Shown one piece after another: positions 1,929-14,130 of a DNA stretch of 64,000 nucleotides. A model generated the notes under the pieces. That model saw nothing but the letters and a program-made list of their open reading frames with translations. It did not search any database and was not told the DNA's origin. Each line of letters starts with the position of its first letter. Position 1 is the stretch's first letter. Source of the stretch: Candidatus Poribacteria bacterium (lineage in GTDB: Bacteria > Poribacteria > WGA-4E > WGA-3G). The DNA lies in contig OY282386.1 in NCBI GenBank assembly GCA_958295945.1, forward strand, positions 5,016,204 through 5,080,203. Reading direction: 5' to 3'. Position numbers and translations under genes: made by a program.

Positions 1929-1989
1929 AATGAACTTATACCCCATATAGTTTAGAGAACACCGACATTTCAAGAAGGAGGTGAAACAG

Positions 1990-2235
1990 ATGTCACTTGA
2001 TTGGAAACCACGTCACAGAGATATGGTAATCGGAGGAATTCCTTGGCTTGCAAGAATATCCGATAAAGCAAACGCAAAACTTCAAGGCATCATCGGAGAA
2101 TATATATATCCGTGACCACAGGACAAAATGTTCCTGGAGGAACATAATATTTCAGCTGAAGATTTTGTTGAGATGGTAGAAAACAATCCGTCAGATGATG
2201 AAATGATTGCTGCAATGAATAAGTTAAGCAGCTAA
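1990..2235 (+). CDS. DUF5069-like small protein with in-frame TGA, candidate selenoprotein
   Basis: The gene has a strong ribosome binding site (AAGGAGGTG) and an ATG at 1990. It reads 41 codons to a TGA at 2113-2115, then continues in the same frame for 39 more sense codons to TAA at 2233. Residues 1-41 (DWKPRHRDM, IGGIPWLARISDKA, GEYIYP) resemble the DUF5069 family as I recall it. In that family a Cys-Pro pair follows the GEY segment; here TGA takes the Cys place and the next codon is Pro. The sequence after the TGA (SAEDFVEMVENNPSDDEMIAAM) also looks like the rest of the family domain. A perfect hairpin lies 12 bases after the TGA. I infer selenocysteine at position 42 of an 81-residue protein. 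The alternative is a Cys-to-stop point mutation making a pseudogene. Function of the family is unknown. Confidence 0.7.
2128..2145 (+). promoter_or_regulatory. SECIS-like hairpin downstream of the in-frame TGA
   Basis: ATGTTCC, a four-base loop TGGA, then GGAACAT form a perfect 7-bp stem. The loop begins 19 bases after the TGA at 2113-2115. Bacterial SECIS elements are known to lie just downstream of the UGA inside the coding region, with a small apical loop carrying a G in its first two positions; this loop has G at position 2. No experiment or covariance model has been applied. Confidence 0.6.
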
Positions 2236-13176: not shown

Positions 13177-14130
13177 CTATCGTGGGATTTCTACTTCGGC
13201 AAGTAGTCTATCGATCACATCGTCTGACGTTAAACCTTCAATTTCAGCCTCTGGTTTCAACAGGATGCGATGACGGTAAACAGGTGGAGCTAGGTATTTT
13301 ACATCATCAGGTATAATATAGTCTCGTCCTTGGATTGCTGCATAAGTTTTACTTGCCAATAAAAGTGCTATTGAGGCGCGAGGACTTCCTCCTAACATTA
13401 GTTCATTTGATCTACGCGAGGCTTCTGCCAGACCAACGATATAGTTAAATATAGTCTCCTCTACGGTGACTGCTTGAATTGACTTTTGACATTCCGTAAG
13501 TTCCTCACTGTTAATAACACTTTCTATACCTACCTCATCCAAGCGAATAGCATTAAATCCTTGATGGTAATTCCTCAAAATTTGTGTTTCTAATTCAGGA
13601 CCAGGATAGTCTACTTTGAGTTTAAACATAAATCTATCCAACTGTGCTTCTGGTAGTGGATATGTTCCCTCATATTCAATGGGATTTTGTGTTGCTAAAA
13701 CAATGAATGGAATTGGCAGTTCATGCCGTACCCCATCAATGCTGACTTGACGTTCTTCCATACATTCCAAGAGTGCAGATTGTGTTTTTGCTGGAGAACG
13801 GTTTATTTCATCTGTAAGTAGGACATTGGTGAACACGGGACCGTGTTTTAGATTAAACTGATTTGTCGTCAAATCGTAAACACTTGTTCCGATAATGTCA
13901 GATGGCATCAGATCAGGCGTGAACTGAACACGACTGAATTGGCCAGAGACTATCATTGACAAAGTCTTTGCGATTAACGTTTTTGCCGTTCCCGGTACAC
14001 CTTCTAATAAAACATGTCCTCCTGCAAATAGACTGACGACTACGAGTTCAAAGATTTCTTCTTGTCCGACAATAATTTTCTGTGCTTCCTGTTTAATTCT
14101 TTCAAAAACTGTTTGTACTGTATTTTCCAT
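13177..14130 (-). CDS. MoxR-family AAA+ ATPase
   Basis: AAA+ ATPase of about 317 residues thought to act as a chaperone for VWA-domain partners. Walker A is [15 protein letters not shown], Walker B is [19 protein letters not shown], and sensor 1 is [22 protein letters not shown]-like with LDRF following. The C-terminal lid has [14 protein letters not shown] and [14 protein letters not shown] place the start at the ATG at 14130 (MENTVQTVF), 28 bases after the upstream stop. An ATG at 14202 would overlap the upstream gene and adds residues atypical of the family. Operon with DUF58, DUF4350 and DUF4129 genes. Confidence 0.93.

Follow-up and report, generated by a model that had tools for sequence, protein, structure and literature searches.

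The 64,000-nucleotide (nt) stretch of Candidatus Poribacteria DNA analyzed here (hereafter, the window) carries a small gene of the DUF5069 family (PF16798) that, judging from comparison with its relatives, very probably encodes a selenoprotein, with one in-frame UGA codon read as selenocysteine (Sec) (Table 1). The frame starts with an ATG behind the Shine-Dalgarno sequence AGGAGGTGA, which has similar counterparts ahead of the gene in many Poribacteria relatives, is interrupted by a single TGA, and closes with a TAA at 2233–2235. The PF16798 profile matches residues 7–78 of the read-through frame with 51.2 bits (curated cut-off 27), the match extending across the TGA into both flanks, and the original prediction, which had named a DUF5069-like family, a strong ribosome binding site and coding sequence on either side of the TGA, was right on all three. 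The protein covers only positions 4–75 of the 133 in the profile, which is less than the full-length domain, and the clade of Sec proteins is a short form of DUF5069 of about 80–90 residues; around the Sec, the motif is YPU (U denoting Sec), with no partner cysteine (Cys). The assembly consists of one 5.34-Mb contig, in which a scan for the family recovered the window gene, its match containing one TGA, and two other DUF5069 proteins: one three-domain protein and one further copy.

Table 1 Features of the predicted selenoprotein gene, in window positions
Feature	Position	Strand	Basis or remark
Shine-Dalgarno sequence AGGAGGTGA	1976..1984	+	5 nt ahead of the ATG at 1990; direct reading
Coding sequence, predicted 81-residue DUF5069-type selenoprotein	1990..2235	+	PF16798 match; 118 distinct relatives; purifying selection before and after the TGA
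Predicted Sec UGA codon, residue 42	2113..2115	+	Column is TGA or Cys in 118 distinct genes
Spacer from UGA to hairpin, 12 nt	2116..2127	+	Same length in all TGA genes examined except L163 (3 nt more)
Putative selenocysteine insertion sequence (SECIS) hairpin	2128..2145	+	Stem 2128-2134/2139-2145, loop TGGA 2135-2138; loop, core codons and covariation

The column of the TGA was followed through relatives from profile searches of 85 genomes of the Poribacteria phylum and 64 genomes of Latescibacterota (the phylum of L075), which covered copies with one TGA or none. Among 118 distinct genes, which come from these two phyla, the codon is TGA in 105, TGC in ten and TGT in three, and nothing else in any, so that the selenoprotein candidate put forward in the original prediction finds support in the column itself. 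Tallied over the profile searches, the TGA form is present in 72 Poribacteria and 36 Latescibacterota genomes. Although its query had Cys placed at the Sec column, a scan of public genomes found 62 relatives, 60 from Poribacteria, every one of which has TGA there; the closest named relatives belong to Candidatus Poribacteria. Cys copies come from one family of the Poribacteria phylum (G006–G011) and from seven Latescibacterota genomes. Evolutionarily, a protein tree with this column masked needs at least three changes between Sec and Cys, a count drawn from few columns and many unresolved forks and reducible to a single change that is compatible with the starred branches.

The expectation that the TGA stands at a conserved Cys of the family held in part: Cys is conserved at the column in a short sister clade and occurs there in the solved family structure, 3omd, but it is not conserved throughout DUF5069, as neither the three-domain protein nor the second paralogue in this genome has it there. 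That three-domain paralogue (L001; G000:C1:2693703-2694950) is 427 amino acids long and has tandem DUF5069 domains, and multi-domain copies like it are present in many genomes of the phylum.

Downstream of the TGA, the 7-base-pair (bp) stem with a TGGA loop that had been described twelve bases beyond the codon was confirmed; in the window, ATGTTCC pairs with GGAACAT, and the loop lies 19 nt from the UGA. The loop reads TGGA in 105 of 105 TGA genes, and the codons TTC CTG GAG GAA (Phe48-Leu49-Glu50-Glu51) show zero synonymous variation over 103 genes, with amino-acid changes at residue 51 in three genes, one of which is also changed at residue 50; the mean codon entropy of the other 19 conserved degenerate columns is 1.46 bits. 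The three outer stem pairs vary on both sides, the third being G-C, C-G or A-U. The covariation score is 0.324; slid registers reach no more than 0.101, and none of 500 shuffles scored as high. Changes in three stem pairs are compensatory, with 25 double-change cells versus 10.1 in shuffles. In L163, an extra codon separates the UGA from the hairpin, and the stem is entirely re-paired (GTATTCC-TGGA-GGAATAC). The proposed conservation of the hairpin at synonymous sites was thus found, together with covariation. In the Cys genes, the constraint on the hairpin is gone, and an intact hairpin is absent in 12 of 13. L176 (G145, minus strand, 1480–1734), a Cys form with TGT, retains a 7-bp stem whose loop reads TACA where the TGA genes have TGGA, and a selB was not found in the genome it comes from. 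This gene has the appearance of a recent change from Sec to Cys that left a decaying, or fossil, SECIS.

The selenocysteine machinery named in the original prediction (selA, selB, selC and selD) is all present in the genome: the tRNA for selenocysteine (tRNA-Sec; 78 bits, ARAGORN anticodon tca) directly adjoins selB (362 bits), selA scores 612 bits, and selD, at 361 bits, carries one TGA itself. Across the Poribacteria phylum, selB occurs in 76 of 85 genomes and in 55 of the 56 good ones; it was found in 68 of the 72 TGA-bearing Poribacteria genomes, and the four without it are 73–83% complete. For Latescibacterota, 35 of 36 TGA-bearing genomes have selB versus 3 of 21 having neither form (Fisher P about 1e-10, relatedness uncorrected). 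One Poribacteria genome has a second, partial selB-like match (G053:C50:153489-158679, profile positions 1–269) about 2.5 kb from its full selB.

Mechanistically, tRNA-Sec carried by SelB would decode the UGA as selenocysteine, the hairpin would act as a bacterial SECIS element that holds SelB at the UGA, and translation would then continue to the TAA. This selenoprotein reading is supported by comparative genomics, through the Sec/Cys column, the covarying hairpin and the machinery, and it has to be weighed against some observations to the contrary. Alone, the window hairpin reaches −6.9 kcal/mol, when the bacterial SECIS model of PMC13188914, which leaves the folded stretch unstated, wants a minimum free energy of −7.5 kcal/mol or lower; a different fold is favoured over the 48 nt that start at 2113 (fold z-score −0.8); and selB is also present in most Cys-form genomes, so the form does not strictly track the machinery. 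The same model calls for a stem of 4–16 bp, a loop of 3–9 nt with a G in its first two bases and a distance of 16–37 nt from the UGA (PMC13188914), and the window hairpin agrees with it in stem, loop, loop G and spacing; hairpin energies in relatives range from −6.5 to −9.4 kcal/mol, and an Rfam search of 1900–2400 gave chance matches only. As proof on its own, the window hairpin was rejected, because 15% of the synonymous recodings of this protein also give a stem of at least 7 bp in some allowed register and because of its fold z-score; the hairpin is significant because it is conserved and covaries across 105 genes, not by the window alone. Loss of the machinery is likewise rejected as a general cause of the Cys forms, since selB was found in 5 of the 6 Cys-form genomes from Poribacteria and in 6 of the 7 from Latescibacterota.

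Two other accounts of the TGA were considered. That it is an accident, through a nonsense mutation in a dead pseudogene or a sequencing error, is how a single genome read alone could look, yet TGA occupies this codon position in 105 distinct genes of two phyla, including some in single-contig genomes, and purifying selection acts on the sequence beyond the TGA (median ratio of nonsynonymous to synonymous substitution, dN/dS, of 0.17, versus 0.04 before the TGA, both indicating such selection), with variation by codon position resembling that before it. The comparison of homologues, having found both TGA in relatives and Cys elsewhere, excludes a misread base, and we regard an accidental TGA as almost certainly wrong. 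The UGA could otherwise be a normal stop that leaves a 41-residue peptide, or be read through as Trp or Cys by suppression or under a changed code. It does terminate other genes here, 5 of the 27 long open reading frames (ORFs) in the window ending in TGA. However, protein-level conservation continues past the UGA, and the column exchanges with Cys only and never with Trp; suppression, for its part, would need neither the hairpin constraint nor selA, selB, selC and selD. Eight TGA genes have a second TGA as their terminal stop, and since UGA ends these genes as well as other ORFs, a code change or general suppression does not explain the data. We therefore consider a stop or ordinary read-through very improbable.

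Around the gene, the order UPF0182, DUF5069 selenoprotein gene, pheA and queG is widely kept in Poribacteria: among 62 loci, some of them cut by contig ends, the upstream gene is found in 57, pheA in 51 and queG in 43. These Poribacteria neighbours (UPF0182, pheA, queG) give no functional lead. In the window, a Uma2 (PF05685) gene at 1263–1928 stands between UPF0182 and the selenoprotein gene, as at one other locus only (L014), and is possibly a recent insertion. Elsewhere in the window, TGAs with open flanks and a downstream hairpin of 8–9 bp occur at 13748 (+), 27311 (+) and 10112 (−), probably by chance. At 16 Latescibacterota loci, of both Sec and Cys forms (L177, L180, L182–L186, L188–L193, L195, L203 and L209), the DUF5069 gene is directly followed on its own strand by a gene for a ferredoxin-reductase-like protein that has an NAD-binding domain (PF00175 in both of the genes scanned). 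Where readable, the start of this reductase-like gene lies 1–3 bases past the DUF5069 stop; in TGA genes, its ATG is 1 base beyond the true stop. This close coupling suggests that ribosomes pass the UGA and that both proteins work together.

Functionally, the AlphaFold model of the window protein (mean confidence, pLDDT, 89.6) has four helices and places residue 42 immediately ahead of helix 43–51; its fold is helical and not thioredoxin-like, and a Foldseek search found nothing meaningful beyond 3omd. Since Cys is absent from 83 of the 104 Sec proteins, the Sec, if redox active, would be a lone selenol with an outside partner. We tentatively posit, at somewhat less than even confidence, a one-Sec redox enzyme with Sec 42 as a lone redox-active selenol, which would be recharged by an outside reductant. 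What counts against this role is that it is drawn from the exchange of Sec and Cys, the position ahead of a helix, and an operon in one Latescibacterota group only. The selenoprotein could instead be a binding protein in which Sec 42 serves as a metal ligand or a carrier of selenide or persulfide. A lone Sec or Cys, no conserved resolving Cys, and a small helical domain without a thioredoxin fold would suit such a non-redox protein, but the tightly linked NAD-binding ferredoxin-reductase-like gene of that Latescibacterota group fits electron transfer better, and known selenoproteins are mostly redox proteins (PMC13188914); we see non-redox binding as possible but rather unlikely, with some other role slightly less likely again. 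On the redox reading, an extended proposal, which we hold to be doubtful at present, is a new class of selenoenzyme: a redox domain of minimal size, helical and unlike thioredoxin, in which a single selenol is catalytic. In Latescibacterota it would be served by a ferredoxin-reductase-like flavoenzyme dedicated to it, and nearly all Poribacteria would have kept it.

Whichever role applies, the natural exchange of Sec and Cys marks residue 42 as chemically important in a family of unknown function whose crystal structure, 3omd, is unexplained. Joint occurrence of SelA and SelB has been reported for most sponge-symbiont bins, across various phyla, and their absence for most related references (PMC5649159); as a near-universal Poribacteria gene, the DUF5069 gene is one concrete candidate for why the machinery is kept, and the new selenoenzyme class, if true, could be one reason that sponge symbionts retain it. 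An automatic annotation pipeline would probably either overlook the gene or truncate it to 41 codons.

The original prediction knew of no described selenoprotein in this family, and DUF5069/PF16798 is indeed absent from the text of a May 2026 review that tables 119 prokaryotic selenoprotein families or subfamilies (PMC13188914). The window protein matches no NCBIfam model; for several selenoprotein families whose function is unknown, that review cites such models. The literature searched, a scope outside which lie most subscription journals, preprints and one selenoprotein survey of groundwater metagenome-assembled genomes (Deng et al. 2026), held no mention of DUF5069 and none of selenoproteins together with Poribacteria. 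Comparative genomics supports the presence of a selenoprotein gene in a family that the 119-family inventory lacks; this would add the family to the selenoproteins in two little-studied phyla.

Structurally, the window protein has the same fold as the DUF5069 member 3omd_A of Leptospirillum rubarum (VIA Z 12.6, root-mean-square deviation 1.4, 79 of 81 residues aligned, 34% identity), which has Cys where the window protein has the predicted Sec; 3omd is 145 residues long, whereas the Sec clade, at its 80–90 residues, corresponds to the N-terminal part of the family profile only. With the bacterial selenoproteins of PMC13188914, the gene shares an in-frame UGA at a Cys position, a SECIS-like hairpin with a loop G, and selA, selB, selC and selD. 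Many of those families have a thioredoxin-like fold or a UxxC or CxxU motif, whereas the family described here is helical, with YPU and no partner Cys. Cys homologues with a remnant SECIS are a known phenomenon, seen in FdhA and HesB-like proteins (PMC1794560), and L176 likewise keeps its stem, downstream of a Cys codon; in contrast to those homologues, it has lost the loop Gs and belongs to a genome in which selB was not found.
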